A stretch of DNA of 64,000 nt, from assembly GCF_025141175.1 (NCBI RefSeq), contig NZ_CP081155.1, positions 1,951,001-2,015,000 on the forward strand, given 5' to 3'. This DNA comes from Jannaschia sp. M317. GTDB taxonomy: Bacteria > Pseudomonadota > Alphaproteobacteria > Rhodobacterales > Rhodobacteraceae. A program made the position numbers and the translations under genes. Under the pieces are notes generated by a model. The model saw only the letters and a list, made by a program, of their open reading frames with translations, ran no database searches and had not been told where the DNA came from. Of this stretch, positions 26,435-33,619 are shown one piece after another. Every line of letters begins with the position of its first letter. Position 1 is the stretch's first letter.

Positions 26435-26743
26435 CTAGGCGTCGGGCGCGTAAAGGGTCGTGACGAGGCGTTGGCTGATCGGCGGTGCGATCATCAGGGG
26501 CTTCAGCCCCGCCAACGCGCGGGCAAACGCGTCGGAGGCGAGGTAGCCTTCGAAGCTGGCCGCATCCGACCAGCCGTGTTCCAGCCGCAGGCGGTCGGGC
26601 GCATGGGGATCGGTCAGCACGTCAAAGGCGACGTTGCCCGGCATTTCGCGTGCCTCGGCTGCGTCGATATCCAGAATGGCCTGCGCTTCGGCACGCTTGT
26701 CAGGGGCGACGGTCACGTCGATGAGGGCAAGAATCTGGGTCAT
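26435..26743 (-). CDS. Antibiotic biosynthesis monooxygenase-like (ABM/YgiN) protein
   Basis: A 102-aa ferredoxin-like alpha/beta protein of the ABM superfamily (ILALIDVTVAPDKRAEAQAIL, AFDVLTDPHAPDRLRLEHGWSD, FARALAGLKPLM). Relatives oxidise quinols or act in small-molecule catabolism without a cofactor. The start overlaps the end of the methyltransferase gene by ATGA, so the two are coupled. The substrate is unknown. Confidence 0.82.
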   Translation of the reverse strand: MTQILALIDVTVAPDKRAEAQAILDIDAAEAREMPGNVAFDVLTDPHAPDRLRLEHGWSDAASFEGYLASDAFARALAGLKPLMIAPPISQRLVTTLYAPDA

Positions 26744-27351
26744 GCTTGGGTCTCCGTTGCTAGGGTAAAGAGGTAGGCGCGGCTGGTGCGGCGGGGCGGG
26801 CCACTGGCAAAGCCGGTGGTGGCAAGGGGGCGCAGATCCGCCGCGCGGGCCATGGACTGGACGGTGTCTGATGCAAACCAACGGTGTCGCCAGCGCAGCC
26901 AGATCACCCATTGGCACCAATGCGGACGGCTGACGATCAGCAGCAGGCGACCGCCAGGTGTCAGCAGCCGCGTCATGGCCCGCAACCCCGCGACCGGGTC
27001 GTCCAGATGTTCGATCAGATGCGCGCTGATCACCAGGTCGAAGGCACCTTGCGTGCCGTAACCGTCCAGCGTGCTGGCCACGCATTCGGCCCCCGGCAGG
27101 ACCGCGCGCGCCTGCGCCAGCATGGCGGCAGATCGGTCCACGAGGGTCAGACGGTCGGGCCAGCCCAGACGCGCCACCAGTGCGGCGGCCAGCGTACCGG
27201 TGCCCGCGCCCATGTCGCAGACGGCACCTGGCCGGGTCGGGACCAGTTGGTCCAGCATTTCGCCATAAGCGGCCTCATACCCCAGACCGCGCATGCGATC
27301 GGCCCACCAGGGGGCGGCTGTGGCGTAGGGGTCCAGGGTTTGATCGGTCAT
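26740..27351 (-). CDS. Class I SAM-dependent methyltransferase
   Basis: A 203-aa Rossmann-fold methyltransferase: motif I VCDMGAGTGTLAAAL, acidic loop LTLVDRSAAMLAQA, motif IV FDLVISAHLIEHLDDP and LLTPGGRLLLIVSRPH. The acceptor is unknown. ATG 27351 is chosen because the upstream 30 residues lack family similarity. 154 nt separate it from the VOC gene upstream, so it may have its own promoter. Confidence 0.85.
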   Translation of the reverse strand: MTDQTLDPYATAAPWWADRMRGLGYEAAYGEMLDQLVPTRPGAVCDMGAGTGTLAAALVARLGWPDRLTLVDRSAAMLAQARAVLPGAECVASTLDGYGTQGAFDLVISAHLIEHLDDPVAGLRAMTRLLTPGGRLLLIVSRPHWCQWVIWLRWRHRWFASDTVQSMARAADLRPLATTGFASGPPRRTSRAYLFTLATETQA

Positions 27352-27505
27352 CGCGGGTCTCTGGCTGTTCAGAGGCAAGATGACCGAGTTGCGGGCGGCG
27401 TGCCTCCGGCAGGCAGACGAAAACCGGCGCGCGCCGGACAAACGGAACCGGGCACCTATTGCGAGATCCGTCGGCGTGCCTTTCCTGGTGCGTTTTCGGC
27501 GCTGC

Positions 27506-27916
27506 TCAGCGCGCCGCCAGCAGGTCAGCCCGGTGCACTAGGTGCAGCTTGTTGCCGTCCGGGTCGCGCAGGTAGGCACCATAGTAGTCGGGGGCATAGT
27601 TGGGGCGCAGGCCCGGCGCGCCCGCATCGCTGCCCCCCATGGACAGGCCCGCCGCGTGGGCCGCGTCCACGGCGGCCCGGTCGGGCGCGATCAAGGCCAC
27701 CATCGTTCCGTTGCCCGCCGTGGCCGCGCTGTCATCGTAGGGGGTCGTGATGTAGAGGCGCGGTGCCACGCAACCGGGCAGGTGCCAACAGAACATCACG
27801 GGGCCGCCGTCGTCCTCGACCGCGCGTTCCACCAGTCCGAGGGGGGCCAACACCGCGCGGTAAAAGGCCCCGGCACGATCCAGATCGGCGCAGCCGAGGC
27901 AGATGTGAGAGATCAT
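27506..27916 (-). CDS. VOC family (glyoxalase/dioxygenase-like) protein
   Basis: A 136-aa vicinal oxygen chelate protein. Candidate metal ligands are His4 (MISHICLGCADL), Glu or His in the middle, and the conserved end YYGAYLRDPDGNKLHLVHR. Relatives include lactoylglutathione lyase and small dioxygenases. The start overlaps the nitrile hydratase-type alpha gene by 4 nt, so it is the terminal partner of that operon and may process its product or a related metabolite. Confidence 0.85.
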   Translation of the reverse strand: MISHICLGCADLDRAGAFYRAVLAPLGLVERAVEDDGGPVMFCWHLPGCVAPRLYITTPYDDSAATAGNGTMVALIAPDRAAVDAAHAAGLSMGGSDAGAPGLRPNYAPDYYGAYLRDPDGNKLHLVHRADLLAAR

Positions 27917-28563
27917 CCGGGCATCCGCGCCAGACCCACCCCGATCATGCTGTCACGGGTGACCAGCGCGGCCAGCGCCGCCTCATCCATCGTCTCGGTG
28001 CCTGCGGGGCGCGCAGGGATCACCACATAGCGCATGTCGGCGGTGGAATCGTGGACCCGGACCGTGGTGTCATCTGACAGGGTCACGCCGAACTCGGCCA
28101 GCACGCGGCGCGGTTCGCGGACTGTGCGCGATCGGTAGGCCCGGCTTTTGTACCAATCGGGCGGCAGGCCCAACAGGTTGCGCGGATAGCAGGAGCAGAG
28201 CGTGCAGACGACCACGTTGTGTACCGTGTCCGTGTTTTCGACTGCGATCAGCTTCAGCGGCCCGATGTCGAAACCCATTTCGGTCGCCGCTGCCGAGGCA
28301 TCGGTCAGCAGGCGGTCGCGAAAATCGGGGTCAACCCAGGCGCGGGCCACGACGGCGGCCCCCTGCGCAGGAGAGCGGGCGTCCATCGCCTCGATCTGGC
28401 GGGCGACCTCGGCCTCGGTGACGACGCCCTTGGCGATCATCAGCTCGCGAATGGCGATCTCCATCACCTGCCAATAGGTCAGCGGCCCGTCCTGATCTGC
28501 GCGGTAAGGGTGGCCGGATGGGGACATGCCCTCGTGGCTGTGGTGCGGGTGATCGTGGGGCAT
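27913..28563 (-). CDS. Cobalt-type nitrile hydratase alpha / thiocyanate hydrolase gamma subunit
   Basis: A 216-aa metal-binding catalytic subunit. The claw motif VVVCTLCSCYPR has C120, C123 and C125; Thr after the first Cys marks the non-corrin Co(III) type rather than Fe. R128 follows where nitrile hydratases have Trp (CSCYPW). As I recall, thiocyanate hydrolase gamma has Arg at this position, eight residues after the first Cys. The rest is family-typical (LLGLPPDWYKSRAYRSRTVREPR, MRYVVIPARPAGTETM, VTRDSMIGVGL). The N-terminus is His-rich (MPHDHPHHSHEG). It shares a base with the stop of the preceding beta-C gene (TGATG). Nitrile hydratase activity remains the alternative. Confidence 0.85.
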   Translation of the reverse strand: MPHDHPHHSHEGMSPSGHPYRADQDGPLTYWQVMEIAIRELMIAKGVVTEAEVARQIEAMDARSPAQGAAVVARAWVDPDFRDRLLTDASAAATEMGFDIGPLKLIAVENTDTVHNVVVCTLCSCYPRNLLGLPPDWYKSRAYRSRTVREPRRVLAEFGVTLSDDTTVRVHDSTADMRYVVIPARPAGTETMDEAALAALVTRDSMIGVGLARMPG

Positions 28564-28862
28564 CAGAGCGGCTCCAGCCAATGGGCGTAGATTTCGGCGT
28601 CGATGGTGTCGTTGGGGGTCTGGCTGTCGGGCCAGACTTCGCCCAGGCGAAAGCGGACGCGGTAGAGGGGCAGGGCCTGGGCGGGGTGCCCATAGGCCAG
28701 CTGTTCGGGGTTGGCGAAGGGGCCCAGCACCCGTTCGACGGCGCCTGTCTTGCCGCGCAGGTAGGCAGGTGTGCGCACGTGGCCCGGTGGCATCAGGGTG
28801 CGGACACGGACGGGCGTGCCGGGGGCAAACGTGTCAGGCACCGGCATCGCTCGCCGTGCCAT
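28563..28862 (-). CDS. Nitrile hydratase beta C-terminal domain / thiocyanate hydrolase alpha subunit (separate gene)
   Basis: A 99-aa SH3-like barrel protein equal to the C-terminal half of nitrile hydratase beta: FAPGTPVRVRTLMPPGHVRTP, AYLRGKTGAVERV, LYRVRFRLGEVW and the C-terminal AHWLEPL. In ordinary nitrile hydratases this is fused to the N-terminal helical half; here it is a gene of its own, as in three-subunit thiocyanate hydrolases and toyocamycin nitrile hydratase. The start at 28862 overlaps the upstream gene by 29 nt; ATG 28847 is an equally good start by family length. Confidence 0.85.
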   Translation of the reverse strand: MARRAMPVPDTFAPGTPVRVRTLMPPGHVRTPAYLRGKTGAVERVLGPFANPEQLAYGHPAQALPLYRVRFRLGEVWPDSQTPNDTIDAEIYAHWLEPL

Positions 28863-29187
28863 AGGTGGTGCCGCGTGCCTCGACCTCGGCCATCTTGTCC
28901 GCCAGTTCGGCCACGGAATAGATCCCTTGTTCCAGCAGGTTCTGGTTCAACGACCCGACCCAGCGTTCGTAGTAGCCGAGCGTCTCGAAGGCGTCTTCGC
29001 CCATGTCTTCCAGAACACGGCGCAACCCGTCGACGGTGAAGATGCCCTTCATGTTGGCCAGCATCACCAAGGCATCGACCCGCTTTTCCCACAGCGCGAA
29101 ATCGTGGTCGGCGTCGGGCACGGGACCGGCCAGTTCACCGCCCATGTCGTGCCACCGCTTGCCTGCAAAGGCTTCGCCGGCGGTCAT
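28834..29187 (-). CDS. Nitrile hydratase beta N-terminal domain / thiocyanate hydrolase beta subunit (separate gene)
   Basis: A 117-aa helical protein equal to the N-terminal half of nitrile hydratase beta: WHDMGGELAGPV at the start, FALWEKRVDALVMLANMKGIFT, and GYYERWVGSLNQNLLEQG. With the two next genes it gives the order N-beta, C-beta, alpha, the order of scnB-scnA-scnC in thiocyanate hydrolase operons. Nitrile hydratase activator proteins have a related fold, so an accessory role is the main alternative, but the DMGG start is of the subunit type. It begins within the stop of the DUF442 gene. Confidence 0.8.
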   Translation of the reverse strand: MTAGEAFAGKRWHDMGGELAGPVPDADHDFALWEKRVDALVMLANMKGIFTVDGLRRVLEDMGEDAFETLGYYERWVGSLNQNLLEQGIYSVAELADKMAEVEARGTTYGTASDAGA

Positions 29188-29612
29188 GCCTGACCCGCCA
29201 GCTGGTCGATCTGCGGTGCCAACCCATCGAGCGCGTAGCCCGCGTTGCGCGTGGCGGCCAGGATGTCCTGCGTCGGACGTTGCCCGGCCATGGCCAGCGC
29301 CCAAAGAACGGCGGACCGTGTGCCAGACGCGCAGTAGGCGACGACGCGGCCTTCGGCCCCGGCGATAGCATCGGCCTGTTCCTCGACGGCGTCGAGCGTC
29401 AGGTTCGGCATGGCGATCGGGTTGAAGGTAAACGACAGGCCCGCCGCTTCGGCGGCGGCCTGCATGGCACCAGCCTGATGAGAGGGCGGGACCTCTGCAT
29501 CCGGGCGGTTGCAGATGATTGCGGTGACCCCATCGGCGGCCAGAACGGCCATGTCGGCAGGGTCGAGTTGCGGCGTGACGGAGGTCGTCTCGTCCAGGGG
29601 GCGCAGGTCCAT
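29184..29612 (-). CDS. DUF442/TIGR01244 phosphatase-like protein of the sulfide detoxification locus
   Basis: A 142-aa protein of the protein tyrosine phosphatase-like fold. The active-site loop VAYCASGTRSAVLW has C94 and R99. This domain is fused to the metallo-beta-lactamase domain in some Blh proteins and is related to rhodanese-like function, so a sulfurtransferase role in persulfide handling is plausible. Here it is a separate gene. It overlaps the thiocyanate hydrolase-like beta gene by ATGA, which ties the two modules into one transcript. The start MDLRPLDETTSVTPQL matches the family N-terminus. Confidence 0.85.
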   Translation of the reverse strand: MDLRPLDETTSVTPQLDPADMAVLAADGVTAIICNRPDAEVPPSHQAGAMQAAAEAAGLSFTFNPIAMPNLTLDAVEEQADAIAGAEGRVVAYCASGTRSAVLWALAMAGQRPTQDILAATRNAGYALDGLAPQIDQLAGQA

Positions 29613-29706
29613 GGCGGGCTTTCGGTTGGGTCCGGTTGCGCCGCAGGATGCCCGCAGGCGCGCAGGAGGTAAAGAGACGCGGTCGCGCGGGTGCGACCGC
29701 GTCGGA

Positions 29707-30126
29707 TCAGGCCGCGCGCAGGGCGCGCAGGCGCGGCAGGGCCACCATGCCCAGCACCATCGCGGCGGCAAAGCCCGCCACCTTCGGCCCCCCCCAAAGC
29801 AGCGAGGCCAGCGCCGGTCCCGGGCATAGCCCGACCAGGCCCCAGCCAATTCCGAACAGGACCGATCCCGCGATCAGCGGCCCGTCGAGGCCGGTGACCC
29901 GTTCTGGCCAGCTTTGCGCCAGCACCGGCGCGCGGCGCGGGGTGACGCGCCAGGCAAACAGCATCGGCAGGATCGCGCCCCCCATCACGAAGGCCAGCGT
30001 CGGATCCCACGGACCGGGACCCAGTAGCGCCAGGAACCCCCGGACCCTGGCCGTGTCCGTCATCCCGGAGACGAGCAATCCGCCGCCGAACAGGGCACCG
30101 GCGGCGGCGGCGACCAGGGGTCTCAT
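29707..30126 (-). CDS. YeeE/YedE (DUF6691-type) membrane transporter half, second copy
   Basis: A 139-aa membrane protein with about four helices. It has GALFGGGLLVSGMTDTARVRGFL and the conserved Cys motif GWGLVGLCPGPALASLLWG. Such proteins pair with a second YeeE/YedE half and are believed to move sulfur species (thiosulfate or hydropersulfide) across the membrane. It starts in the stop codon of its partner gene (ATGA). A 94-nt gap separates it from the DUF442 gene. Confidence 0.85.
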   Translation of the reverse strand: MRPLVAAAAGALFGGGLLVSGMTDTARVRGFLALLGPGPWDPTLAFVMGGAILPMLFAWRVTPRRAPVLAQSWPERVTGLDGPLIAGSVLFGIGWGLVGLCPGPALASLLWGGPKVAGFAAAMVLGMVALPRLRALRAA

Positions 30127-30545
30127 GCGAAGACCCGCACGGTCAGCACGCCTGCGGCGATAAAGGTGACCGTGGCGGCCAGCGACCGTGGCGACAGGCG
30201 CGATATCCCGCAGACCCCGTGCCCCGAGGTGCAGCCCGCGCCCAGTCGTGTGCCGATCCCGACCAACAGCCCGGCAATCAGCAGCGTGGGCCAACCCGCG
30301 ACGATGTTGGTGGGCCGGTCGCCCGTGGCGAGCACGATCAGCAACGGCACCCCGATCAGCCCGGCCAGAAAGGCCAGACGTTCCGTGCGCGCATCGCCGG
30401 TCCCATCGACCAGCCCACCCAGAATGCCCGACGCCCCCATGACGCGCCCGTTGACCAACAGCATCAGCGCCGCCGCGCCGCCGATCATCAGCCCTCCGAC
30501 CAATGCCCGCACAACGGCGGGCAAATCCCAGATAATCCCTTCCAT
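30123..30545 (-). CDS. YeeE/YedE membrane transporter half, first copy
   Basis: A 140-aa membrane protein with four or so helices and the sulfur-transport motif IGTRLGAGCTSGHGVCGISRLSPRS. The Cys in GCTSGHG is the residue thought to relay sulfur in YeeE. I start it at ATG 30545, which is preceded by GAAAGGG at suitable spacing; an upstream GTG at 30560 has no ribosome site. Partner of the half-gene at 29707. Confidence 0.87.
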   Translation of the reverse strand: MEGIIWDLPAVVRALVGGLMIGGAAALMLLVNGRVMGASGILGGLVDGTGDARTERLAFLAGLIGVPLLIVLATGDRPTNIVAGWPTLLIAGLLVGIGTRLGAGCTSGHGVCGISRLSPRSLAATVTFIAAGVLTVRVFA

Positions 30546-30576
30546 GGTGACCCTTTCCACAACCTTCGTTTCGTGC

Positions 30577-30607
30577 CCGCAGGGCGGGCTCGCACCCGGC
30601 CCTGCGG
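30577..30607 (-). terminator. Intra-operon hairpin after the persulfide dioxygenase gene
   Basis: Perfect 9-bp stem CCGCAGGGC / GCCCTGCGG with a 13-nt loop, 9 nt past the blh stop. No T run, so it may set the relative expression of blh and the transporter genes rather than end the transcript. Confidence 0.5.
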
Positions 30608-30615
30608 AGGGGCGC

Positions 30616-31482
30616 CTACAACCGGTTGACGGGCAACTTCAAGGAAACGTTGCCTTCGGCGTCCGGCTCGGGCATCCGGCCACCGCGCATGTTGACCTGC
30701 AGCGACGGCAGGATCAGCTTGGGCGCGCCCAGGGTCGCATCGCGTTCGGTGCGCATCTTGAGAAAGGCGTCGCGCCCATCGGCCAGATGCTTGTTCCGCT
30801 TTTCGGCGGCGACGGTGGTTTCCCAGGCAAAGTCGTCTCGTCCCGGTGCCTTGTAGTCATGGCCCACGAAAATGCGGGTGTCGTCGGGCAAGGCCAGGAT
30901 CTTCTGGATCGACTCCCAAAGGACCTCGGCAGAGCCGCCGGGGAAGTCGCAACGCGCGGTGCCGAAATCGGGCATGAACATCGTGTCGCCCACAAAGGCC
31001 GCGCCCCCTTGGCCTTTGCCCACGACATAGGTCAGGCAGGCAGGCGTGTGGCCGGGCGTGTGCAGGACATGGACGGGCAGGGTGCCGATCTGGAACACGC
31101 TGCCTTCGCGAAACAGGGCGTCGAACTGGCTGCCGTCGCGCTGAAACCGTGTGCCCTCGTTGAATATCTTGCCAAAGGTTTCCTGCACCGTGACGATTTC
31201 CGCCCCGATGCCGATCTTGCCGCCCAGTTTTTCTTGAATGTAGGGCGCAGCAGAAAGGTGGTCGGCGTGGACATGGGTTTCCAACAGCCAGTCCACCGTC
31301 AGCCCCCGGTCGCGGATCGCGGCGATCAGGCGATCCGCGCTGTCGGTGCCGGTGCGGCCCGCAGCCATGTCGAAGTCCAGCACCGGGTCGATCACGGCGC
31401 AGGTGGTCCCATCGTCCATAAGGTAGCTGATGGTGTTGGTCCCGCTGTCGAAGAAGCCTTCGACCTGTGGTGTATCGGTCAT
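30616..31482 (-). CDS. blh: Metallo-beta-lactamase-fold persulfide dioxygenase (Blh/ETHE1-like)
   Basis: A 288-aa non-heme iron hydrolase-fold enzyme oxidising glutathione persulfide to sulfite. Metal ligands are seen in ETHVHADHLSAA (H70, H72, D74, H75), HTPGHTPACLTY and FVGHDY; FVGDTMFMPDFGTARCDFPGG is the signature of the Blh/persulfide dioxygenase group. It heads the block with two YeeE/YedE halves and a DUF442 gene, the usual partners in bacterial sulfide detoxification. No ArsR-type BigR regulator gene is present next to it. GGAGG precedes the ATG. Confidence 0.9.
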   Translation of the reverse strand: MTDTPQVEGFFDSGTNTISYLMDDGTTCAVIDPVLDFDMAAGRTGTDSADRLIAAIRDRGLTVDWLLETHVHADHLSAAPYIQEKLGGKIGIGAEIVTVQETFGKIFNEGTRFQRDGSQFDALFREGSVFQIGTLPVHVLHTPGHTPACLTYVVGKGQGGAAFVGDTMFMPDFGTARCDFPGGSAEVLWESIQKILALPDDTRIFVGHDYKAPGRDDFAWETTVAAEKRNKHLADGRDAFLKMRTERDATLGAPKLILPSLQVNMRGGRMPEPDAEGNVSLKLPVNRL

Positions 31483-31605
31483 ATTCGGTCCTCCCTGCGG
31501 AAGGGTCGCGCCACCGCTGGCCCCGCGTCAAGCGCTACCCTGCGTCGGGTGTCGGGGTGCGGCAGCATGCCCCGGCATACAATTCCATAAGCATTGTCAG
31601 TGTTG

Positions 31606-31615
31606 TTAGCGCTAA
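31606..31615. promoter_or_regulatory. Palindrome TTAGCGCTAA in the blh/prpE divergent region
   Basis: A perfect 10-bp palindrome, flanked as TGTTAGCGCTAATT, lies in the 241-bp gap between the divergent blh and prpE genes. The form is that of a LacI/GalR-family operator. No LacI-type gene is in the window, so the binding protein is unknown. Confidence 0.4.
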
Positions 31616-31723
31616 TTGATTGATTGCTAAGGTCTATGTTCGCGCAACCATGCCTGCGCCGCCCTTGCGTGACGGCAGAAGCAGGCCGTAAACATGGGCC
31701 AAAGGGGACCGGAGGACATGGGA

Positions 31724-33619
31724 ATGAGCTGGAAAAGCGAATGGGACCGGGCGCACAGCGACCCGGAAGGGTTCTGGATGGACGCCGCGCGGGCCATCGA
31801 CTGGGCCAAGGCCCCGTCCAGGGCGCTGCACGATCTGGGCGGGCCGGTGCCCGAATGGTTCGCTGACGGCATGGTCAACGCCTGTCACAACGCGGTCGAT
31901 CGCCACGTGGCGGCGGGCCACGGCGACCGGGTGGCGATCATCCATGACAGCCCGGTGACCGACAGCGTCACCAAGGTCACCTACGCAGACTTGCAGGACC
32001 GTGTCGCCCGCCTGGCCGGGGCCCTGGCCGCGCGCGGCGTGGGCACGGGCGACCGGGTTCTGATCTACATGCCGATGGTGCCCGAAGCCCTGGAGGCGAT
32101 GCTGGCCTGTGCCCGGCTTGGCGCGATCCATTCGGTCGTCTTCGGTGGTTTCGCGGCGGCTGAACTGGCCGTGCGGATCGACGATGCAAAGCCAAAGGCC
32201 ATCCTCGCCGCCTCGGGCGGGATCGAGCCGAACCGCGTCGTGCCCTACAAGCCGCTGCTGGACGGGGCGATCGACATGGCTGCGCACAAACCGGATGCCT
32301 GCATCATCCTGGAACGTCCGGGCCTGGAGGTCGACCTGGGCCCGCGCGACGTGGATTGGGCCGCCGCCGTGTCCGCCGCCGACCCGCACCCCTGCGTGCC
32401 TGTGCGCGGCGATCACCCTGCCTATATCCTTTACACTTCCGGCACGACGGGGGCACCCAAGGGTGTGGTCCGCGCGACCGGCGGGCATCTGGTCGCGCTC
32501 GACTGGTCAATGACCAACATCTACGGCGTTCAACCCGGAGAGGTCTACTGGGCCGCCTCTGACGTGGGCTGGGTCGTAGGGCACAGCTATATCTGCTATG
32601 CGCCTCTGATCCATGGCTGCACCACCATCGTGTTCGAGGGCAAGCCAGTCGGCACCCCGGATGCCTCGACCTTTTGGCGGGTGATTTCGGATCATGACGT
32701 TTCGGTCTTCTTCACGGCGCCGACCGCGTTTCGCGCGGTCAAGCGGGACGATCCTGCCGGCGCGCTGATGGCGGGCCATGACCTGTCGTCGCTGCGGGCC
32801 GTGTTCCTGGCCGGGGAACGCGCCGACCCCGACACCGTGAAATGGATCGAGACGCGCACGGGCGTGCCCGTCATCGACCATTGGTGGCAGACCGAAACCG
32901 GTTGGGCCATCGCGGCCAACCCCCTGGGGCTGGAACAACTGCCGATCAAATCCGGCAGCCCTTCGGTCCCGATGCCCGGCTATACCGTCGAGGTCCTGGA
33001 CGAAGGCGGCCACCCCGTCGCGCCCGGCGAACTGGGGGCCATAGCCGTCAAGCTGCCATTGCCGCCCGGCACCCTTCCGACGCTTTGGAACGCGGCAGAC
33101 CGCTTCCAGTCGAGCTATCTCGATACCTTTCCGGGCTATTACGAGACGGGGGACGCGGGGATGCTGGACGAAGACGGCTATCTGTGGATCATGTCGCGCA
33201 CGGACGATGTCATCAACGTGGCCGGCCACCGCCTGTCCACCGGTGCCATGGAAGAGGTGCTGGCCACCCATCCCGACGTCGCCGAATGTGCCGTCATCGG
33301 CGTGGCCGATGATCTGAAAGGGCAGTTGCCGATGGGATTCCTGTGCCTGACCAAGGGCGTCGACCGGCCACACGGGGACATCGCGCAGGAATGCGTGAAA
33401 CTGGTGCGCGAAAAGATCGGCCCGGTCGCGGCCTTCAAGCTTGCCGTGGTGGTGGACCGTCTGCCGAAAACCCGGTCAGGCAAGATCCTGCGCAAGGTCA
33501 TGGCGCAGATCGCCGACGGTGCCGACTGGAAGATGCCCGCGACCATCGACGACCCGGCCATCATGGATGAAATCGGGACCGCGACGCGCACGCTGGGCTA
33601 TCCGGCCGGGGCCGATTGA
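31724..33619 (+). CDS. prpE: Propionyl-CoA synthetase
   Basis: A 631-aa AMP-forming acyl-CoA synthetase of the acetyl/propionyl-CoA synthetase family. YILYTSGTTGAPKGVVR, DVGWVVGHSYICYAPLIHG, IDHWWQTETGWAIA, YYETGDAGMLDEDGY and the acetylatable catalytic Lys in LPKTRSGKILRKVM are present. The sequence pattern (VFGGFAAAELAVRIDDAKPK, GHSYICYAPL) is PrpE rather than Acs. ATG 31724 lies 8 nt after GGAGG; the earlier ATG 31718 is too close to it. The stop is overlapped by the TTG start of a hybrid kinase gene. Confidence 0.9.
   Translation: MSWKSEWDRAHSDPEGFWMDAARAIDWAKAPSRALHDLGGPVPEWFADGMVNACHNAVDRHVAAGHGDRVAIIHDSPVTDSVTKVTYADLQDRVARLAGALAARGVGTGDRVLIYMPMVPEALEAMLACARLGAIHSVVFGGFAAAELAVRIDDAKPKAILAASGGIEPNRVVPYKPLLDGAIDMAAHKPDACIILERPGLEVDLGPRDVDWAAAVSAADPHPCVPVRGDHPAYILYTSGTTGAPKGVVRATGGHLVALDWSMTNIYGVQPGEVYWAASDVGWVVGHSYICYAPLIHGCTTIVFEGKPVGTPDASTFWRVISDHDVSVFFTAPTAFRAVKRDDPAGALMAGHDLSSLRAVFLAGERADPDTVKWIETRTGVPVIDHWWQTETGWAIAANPLGLEQLPIKSGSPSVPMPGYTVEVLDEGGHPVAPGELGAIAVKLPLPPGTLPTLWNAADRFQSSYLDTFPGYYETGDAGMLDEDGYLWIMSRTDDVINVAGHRLSTGAMEEVLATHPDVAECAVIGVADDLKGQLPMGFLCLTKGVDRPHGDIAQECVKLVREKIGPVAAFKLAVVVDRLPKTRSGKILRKVMAQIADGADWKMPATIDDPAIMDEIGTATRTLGYPAGAD

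Follow-up and report, generated by a model that had tools for sequence, protein, structure and literature searches.

A predicted activator-free, three-subunit nitrile hydratase behind a sulfide-operon DUF442 gene in Jannaschia

Does a three-gene cassette in Jannaschia sp. M317 encode a thiocyanate hydrolase (SCNase) or a nitrile hydratase (NHase)? The cassette lies in a stretch of 64,000 nucleotides of contig NZ_CP081155.1—hereafter called “the window”—and consists of betaN and betaC, the two halves of a beta subunit, followed by alpha, the catalytic subunit with the cysteine claw. SCNase, whose product is carbonyl sulfide (COS) and whose activator is named P15K, has the gene order scnB-scnA-scnC, and its selectivity is set by two pocket arginines. 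An earlier note on this DNA had described the cassette as SCNase-like, and the sequence and the Pfam matches bear out the coordinates, strand, split beta subunit, gene order, claw, and overlaps given there (Table 1). The enzyme itself is probably of another kind: from the sequence, we predict a cobalt-type, three-subunit, activator-free NHase. Cassettes of this lineage are widespread in Rhodobacteraceae; those of Jannaschia and a few other groups are preceded by the DUF442 gene of a sulfide operon.

Comparison with thiocyanate hydrolase

The layout and the claw are indeed SCNase-like. Arg128, the third residue past the last claw cysteine, aligns with R136 of the SCNase gamma chain 2dd4_C (in 3vyg_C, otherwise the same chain, W takes its place), and the NHases 4ob1, 1v29, and 2dpp carry Trp at this position. 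The Thiobacillus thioparus SCNase (2dd4, 2zzd, 3vyg) and the window enzyme have in common the split beta subunit, the Arg in CTLCSCYPR, and the placement in the Arg half of the family described below. Among the 120 closest alpha homologues listed, including the window's own, 119 have CTLCSCYPR and one has CTLCSCYQR; all of the 120 SCNase-type gammas listed have the claw Arg, in CTLCSCYPR (118) or CSLCSCYPR (2).

The T. thioparus enzyme differs from the window enzyme, however, in betaArg90 and in the gamma insert. Position 90 is Arg in all 120 SCNase-type beta rows listed, and also, as read by eye, in the fused SCNase beta of locus L205, while the window has Leu55 in this column. Outside SCNase, Arg occurs at position 90 in none of the 38 split and 36 fused enzymes among the aligned rows; the neighbouring betaArg91 is conserved in every aligned row. 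In addition, 41 alignment columns are fixed differently (at least 95% on each side) between the SCNase-type gammas and the Rhodobacteraceae alphas, one of these contrasts being the gamma insert, which is missing from the window alpha. The identity of the window alpha to six SCNase-type gammas is 39–44%.

The window alpha scores 259.4 bits with TIGR01323 (nitrile hydratase alpha), above the cut-off of 249.85, and 199.9 bits with TIGR03887 (SCNase gamma), below the cut-off of 291.45; a Roseomonas plasmid SCNase gamma clears the latter model with 359.2 bits. The predicted betaN structure (mean pLDDT 75.8) has matches to NHase beta as well as to SCNase beta, with a best E of 3.8e-3, and therefore does not discriminate between them; the predicted alpha structure has a mean pLDDT of 74.8. 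No true SCNase scored above the cut-off in a sample of 398 genomes from the phylum.

The alpha tree comprises 64 rows (58 of 89 earlier rows and six plasmid rows), and its bootstrap was not fully settled. In this tree, the SCNase clade (seven rows, support 100/100) is separate from the window clade (15 rows, 98/94). The Trp/Phe/His rows (20) and the Arg-type rows (44, of which 42 have Arg, one Lys, and one Val) are set apart by a single branch with 100/100 support, and both SCNase and the window clade lie on the Arg side, where the alpha tree does not resolve their mutual position. The window alpha thus lies outside the ordinary NHases with Trp and a fused beta; a position inside ordinary NHases was what the earlier note had said would refute it. 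The note's assignment to thiocyanate hydrolase is not supported and was rejected, because the window alpha fails TIGR03887, betaArg90 is replaced by Leu, the gamma insert is missing, and the window alpha falls outside the SCNase clade.

Two halves of the nitrile hydratase family

How specific are the split beta subunit and the claw Arg? In a redundant collection of 142 loci (L001–L142; three of them, L001, L083, and L122, come from the window, and some genomes are counted twice), 117 combine Arg with a split beta and two have Arg with only betaC recognised. The rest are Trp/fused (16), Phe/fused (2), His/fused (2), Trp/split (1), and split with an altered first claw Cys (two copies of one gene). 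We also took one genome per genus (n=248) and defined a window-type orthologue as a hit above 285 bits, which was found in 35 of the 248 genera. CTLCSCYPR and both beta halves are present in all 34 orthologue-bearing genera examined, and the layout is therefore not a product of chance. A split beta and a claw Arg mark a family half, and not SCNase specifically; they are common to many proteins named nitrile hydratase in their sources and to a second copy in the host genome.

The same division appears in the activator genes. In 74 loci searched within ~5 kb, with a hidden Markov model whose training set was four annotated accessory proteins (from L206, L209, L210, and L211, loci that are themselves counted), an activator gene accompanies 32 of 32 Trp/Phe rows (Trp/fused 28, Phe/fused 3, Trp/split 1) and none of 42 Arg/Lys/Val rows. 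The latter are Arg/split (36), Arg with a partial beta (3), Lys/split (1), Val/split (1), and Arg/fused (1, the Roseomonas SCNase). The partial-beta loci are L151 and L153, with a betaN-alpha fusion and no betaC found, and L150, where the beta is not whole. On the scale of whole Rhodobacteraceae genomes, TIGR03889 detects activators in all 12 genomes whose enzyme is fused and of the Trp (11) or Phe (1) type, with one of these matches below the curated cut-off, and in none of 26 Arg-type genomes. The same model gave no match in the whole host genome, in a run that was silent in the control genomes as well; its detection of activators comes from the separate set of 12 fused-type genomes. The absence of a cobalt-insertion activator that the earlier note had reported for the window thus extends, with TIGR03889, to the whole genome.

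Conventional cobalt/iron NHases (such as 4ob1 and 1v29) belong to the same family and share the claw with the window enzyme, but they are distinguished by a claw Trp, a one-piece beta, and a separate activator, whereas the window cassette has Arg, separate betaN, betaC, and alpha genes in the three-subunit NHase order, and no activator. The marks that are used to suspect SCNase therefore define a half of the NHase family instead, and this Arg half, SCNase apart, has no separate activator gene in the loci examined. We offer as a testable prediction that claw residue, beta architecture, and activator need go together. The distinction also helps to avoid an annotation trap, in which a split beta is mistaken for a truncated one: a 2012 survey (PMC3323583, available text) noted a beta subunit in Roseobacter CCS2 that “appeared truncated”, and both beta halves are present at that locus (L025). 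In the available text of PMC10098168, NHase and SCNase trees are handled separately. Judged from titles and the starts of abstracts, none of the open-licence papers listed joins the claw Arg, the split beta, and the missing activator, and none reports the pairing of DUF442 with the cassette, which is weak evidence for novelty.

Several loci depart from the common layout. L205, on plasmid p1318-8 of Roseomonas marmotae, encodes an SCNase with both beta parts fused in one gene, surrounded by CbtAB and TauE/SafE genes and transposases; a split beta is therefore no fixed mark of SCNase. Past this SCNase lies a betaN-like open reading frame (L205:8630-9136) that may be an activator, although the locus was scored as activator-free, and for this reason the lack of an activator is claimed only for the other Arg-type loci. 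In two contigs of genome G142 (L151:3813-5051 and L153:2071-3156), betaN and alpha form one frame with a His-rich joint and no recognised betaC, and the two are neighbours in the alpha tree (100/98). This fusion fits a chaperone-like betaN without demonstrating it. A His-rich alpha N-terminus was considered as a mark of activator-free enzymes and rejected, as the His counts overlap (median 6 in split and 5 in fused enzymes). In L058 and L099 (Jannaschia pagri type), the claw reads RTLCSCYPR, with the first Cys changed to Arg in an open frame; from its sequence, this alpha copy may be inactive. In L203, L208, and L283, the Arg-type cassette lies close to a nickel/cobalt transporter gene of the HoxN/HupN/NixA family and has Lys in the SCNase betaArg90 column.

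Proposed activity and its alternatives

Which reaction would an Arg-type enzyme of this layout catalyze? AnhDEA of Streptomyces canus CGMCC 13662, as described in the available text of PMC7329996, has the betaN-betaC-alpha order and lacks a genomic activator; it has been applied to acetamiprid and thiacloprid, and AnhD was proposed as its cobalt-loading chaperone. Compared by description only, AnhDEA and the window cassette share the three genes and their order, the cobalt claw, and the lack of an activator. A plasmid-borne beta-alpha-beta NHase is also reported for the flonicamid degrader Microvirga flocculans (PMC11573777, available text). CTLCSCYPR is present in two plasmid cassettes with matching layouts, one from Streptomyces and one from Microvirga terrae, and by this analogy of layout the nitrile-degrading three-subunit NHases of Streptomyces and Microvirga are probably members of the Arg half. 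The Streptomyces plasmid cassette differs from the window in having Lys in place of Leu55, a HoxN/HupN/NixA-family transporter gene close by, and no annotated sulfur genes.

Moreover, the host genome carries a second Arg-type split cassette (G000:C1:2547442-2548659; locus L168, 5371-6618). Amidase genes flank it on both sides; of the three genes with an amidase domain, one also encodes an allophanate hydrolase C-terminal domain. Genes for a YjgF-like protein and an oligopeptide-type permease lie near. The gene calls around L168, and those for the 80 named loci below, are crude, with family names from profile scans or public annotation. On account of the Arg-type relatives in print and the amidase-flanked second copy, nitrile hydration is the best-supported activity.

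We propose that the three subunits would come together as a single enzyme, as their homologues do. BetaN would load the cobalt by alpha-subunit swapping, by analogy with AnhD, and the nitrile would then be hydrated to the amide at the Cys-claw cobalt site, a site and a product predicted from homologues. The pocket formed by Arg128 and betaLeu55 would be unlike that of SCNase, with Arg and Arg, and unlike those of the Trp-type enzymes; the lineage may thus represent a widespread marine enzyme, so far uncharacterised, whose pocket differs from both studied types. In this scheme, the sulfur genes need not share the substrate of the cassette.

Some observations weigh against this assignment. The best sequence match of betaN among PDB chains is the SCNase beta 2dd4_B. 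At position 90, the Streptomyces and Polymorphobacter loci and Microvirga terrae have Lys (by eye) where the window has Leu, and therefore the substrates may differ. No amidase gene was found among the neighbours of the window cassette scanned with Pfam (26438-31482). Finally, the cassette directly follows DUF442 in 17 of 20 Jannaschia genomes, which is every genome that bears it, and a sulfur-linked substrate is accordingly possible.

How firmly is the cassette tied to the sulfur genes? A close DUF442 relative (62–100% identity) is present in all 20 Jannaschia genomes. In 16 of the 17 bearers, an in-frame ATG or GTG overlaps the DUF442 stop, and in the other (G009) there is a gap of ~300 bases; in the remaining three genomes (G006, G011, G017), DUF442 lacks the cassette and stands beside an acyl-CoA synthetase gene. 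The blh gene adjoins in 3 of the 20. The pairing of DUF442 with the cassette extends to Thalassobacter, Litoreibacter, L035, and L305. At L305, in a genome of 2.4 Mb, the genes run DUF6691-DUF442-betaN-betaC-alpha, with a distant DUF442 (36%). In the genus sample, DUF442 relatives are found in 220 of the 248 genera, and DUF442 is near the cassette in 4 of the 34 orthologue genera examined (~1.5 kb each side, three loci shorter).

In 80 named Rhodobacteraceae loci, searched over at most 8 kb on each side with some contigs short, 66 have no DUF442, Blh, or YeeE, eight have DUF442 only, two have DUF442 and YeeE, and four have all three. A FliG gene lies ahead of the cassette in 48 of these loci, and genes for lipid A acyltransferase (52), DUF1223 (48), and aconitase (52) lie mostly past it. 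In Litoreibacter, DUF442—in some cases with blh and YeeE/DUF6691—precedes the cassette at this FliG/aconitase-type site, and the pairing is hence present at two genomic sites. The blh linkage, whose restriction to this genome the earlier note had named as a refuting outcome, recurs in other genomes. The route from thiocyanate sulfur through COS and Blh to sulfite is unsupported, since most enzyme bearers examined have no adjoining blh. In the DUF442 tree, six label changes are needed, and the starred branches force at least two. A single origin of the NHase-linked DUF442 was not rejected (p-AU 0.197, 29 rows), nor was it in a repeat with L295 and L305 added and the duplicates L250, L251, and L254 dropped (p-AU 0.114, 28 rows); therefore, the pairing may be inherited synteny.

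A genuine thiocyanate hydrolase, releasing COS and ammonia and leaving the resulting sulfide to Blh and DUF442, would account for the claw Arg, the split beta in the same gene order, the 2dd4_B match, and the Arg-side position of both enzymes. We consider it unlikely, given the TIGR03887 score below the cut-off, the Leu for betaArg90, the 41 fixed differences, the separate clade, and the few Jannaschia with adjoining blh. We find even less to favour a cyanide detoxification tandem, in which DUF442 would transfer sulfane sulfur to cyanide and the Arg-type enzyme would hydrolyse the thiocyanate formed. The DUF442 domain of Xylella Blh alone does convert thiosulfate and cyanide to thiocyanate and sulfite in vitro (PMC5823870, available text), and both the fixed place of DUF442 ahead of betaN in Jannaschia, nearly always with an overlapping start, and the recurrence of the pairing elsewhere agree with such a tandem. 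This reading is nevertheless very improbable, as three Jannaschia keep DUF442 without the enzyme, most of the 80 named loci have the enzyme without the sulfur genes, betaArg90 is missing, the pairing may be inherited, and cyanide is perhaps merely a laboratory acceptor of DUF442. The same evidence leaves little room for a matched pair, in which the rhodanese-like DUF442 protein would turn cyanide, or a different acceptor, into a nitrile that bears sulfur, such as thiocyanate, and the co-translated enzyme would hydrolyse it on site; in this improbable reading, the enzyme would be a thiocyanate-hydrolysing lineage apart from classical SCNase, with one pocket Arg and not two.

Two further explanations agree with nitrile hydration. 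The conversion of indole-3-acetonitrile to indole-3-acetamide for auxin synthesis would be a special case of it, and Sulfitobacter mediterraneus, another marine member of the family, has an annotated nitrile hydratase/indole-acetamide hydrolase route (PMC12114110, available text; split type not established). However, a three-subunit enzyme, ScNHase, was almost inactive on indole-3-acetonitrile (PMC7329996, available text), and a Phaeobacter “nitrile hydratase subunit beta” mutant has “Yes” in both result columns, the heads of which lie outside the available text (PMC5148602; split type not established); this specific role seems highly improbable. Alternatively, the pairing with the sulfur operon could be mere gene order kept in a few lineages. 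Many of the 80 named loci have FliG, lipid A acyltransferase, DUF1223, and aconitase neighbours instead, but the pairing recurs across several lineages and occupies two genomic sites, and we regard this explanation as possible though rather doubtful; being compatible with nitrile hydration, it is not to be added to that reading when probabilities are summed.

Gene layout of the locus

The locus belongs to a genome of 3.94 Mb in six contigs, and the named loci nearest to the window alpha are mostly from Jannaschia.

Table 1. Features of the cassette locus, with positions in the window
Feature	Position	Strand	Basis and remarks
alpha, NHase-family metal-claw catalytic subunit	27913..28563	-	216 aa from ATG 28563; His-rich N-terminus; Pfam NHase_alpha PF02979 272.9 bits (27916-28563)
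claw CTLCSCYPR, C120-R128	28180..28206	-	read from the sequence and alignments
betaC, C-terminal beta-subunit half	28563..28862	-	PF02211 NHase_beta_C 84.8 bits (28566-28862); PDB matches; start either ATG 28862 or ATG 28847
betaN, N-terminal beta-subunit half	28834..29187	-	PF21006 NHase_beta_N 62.5 bits (28837-29187)
betaN Leu55 codon, column of SCNase betaArg90	29023..29025	-	alignments
DUF442/TIGR01244 sulfur transferase, stand-alone, CASGTRS loop	29184..29612	-	TIGR01244 127 bits (cut-off 85.85); PF04273 96 bits
DUF6691, YeeE/YedE-type half	29707..30126	-	PF20398 106.2 bits
Sulf_transp, YeeE/YedE-type half	30123..30545	-	PF04143 22.4 bits, below the Pfam cut-off of 27; end of the TsuA model matched, 21.3 bits; alternative start GTG 30560
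persulfide dioxygenase half of Blh	30616..31482	-	NF040641 371.1 bits over positions 140-423 of the 423 in the profile; the full-length cut-off of 625 is not reached
glyoxalase/VOC-family gene	27506..27916	-	PF00903 30.2 bits; start overlaps the alpha stop

Starts and stops overlap at the YeeE/DUF6691, DUF442/betaN, betaN/betaC, betaC/alpha, and alpha/VOC junctions, with betaC overlapping both betaN and alpha. The overlap of the DUF442 stop with the start of the first cassette gene, which the earlier note had pointed out, was seen as a shared ATGA. The cassette junctions are operon-like, and because the start and stop codons overlap, betaN is probably co-translated with DUF442. The VOC gene stands next to the cassette only in part of the Jannaschia loci. 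The “two YeeE/YedE halves” of the note proved partly right: both genes are present, but one is under the Pfam cut-off and the other is DUF6691.

Blh is likewise divided, as NF040641 matches two separate genes with 371.1 and 73 bits. The Blh (DUF442-ETHE1) of the bigR operon in Xylella and Agrobacterium, as given in the available text of PMC5823870, has both domains together with membrane transport genes, as is the case here; in contrast, it is one chain, and the halves in the window are separate genes with YeeE and DUF6691 between them. Further Blh-type dioxygenase genes lie elsewhere in the genome (G000:C1:182917-184743 and G000:C3:26214-27113), one of them with its own DUF442 gene.

A promoter scan of 27300-31800 found none, and an Rfam scan of the window gave zero matches. 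One terminator-like site was found in 27300-31800, a count below the shuffled mean. It is located directly past the VOC gene, where a GC-rich stem is followed by TTTTCGTCTG at 27424-27437, and may represent the end of the operon.

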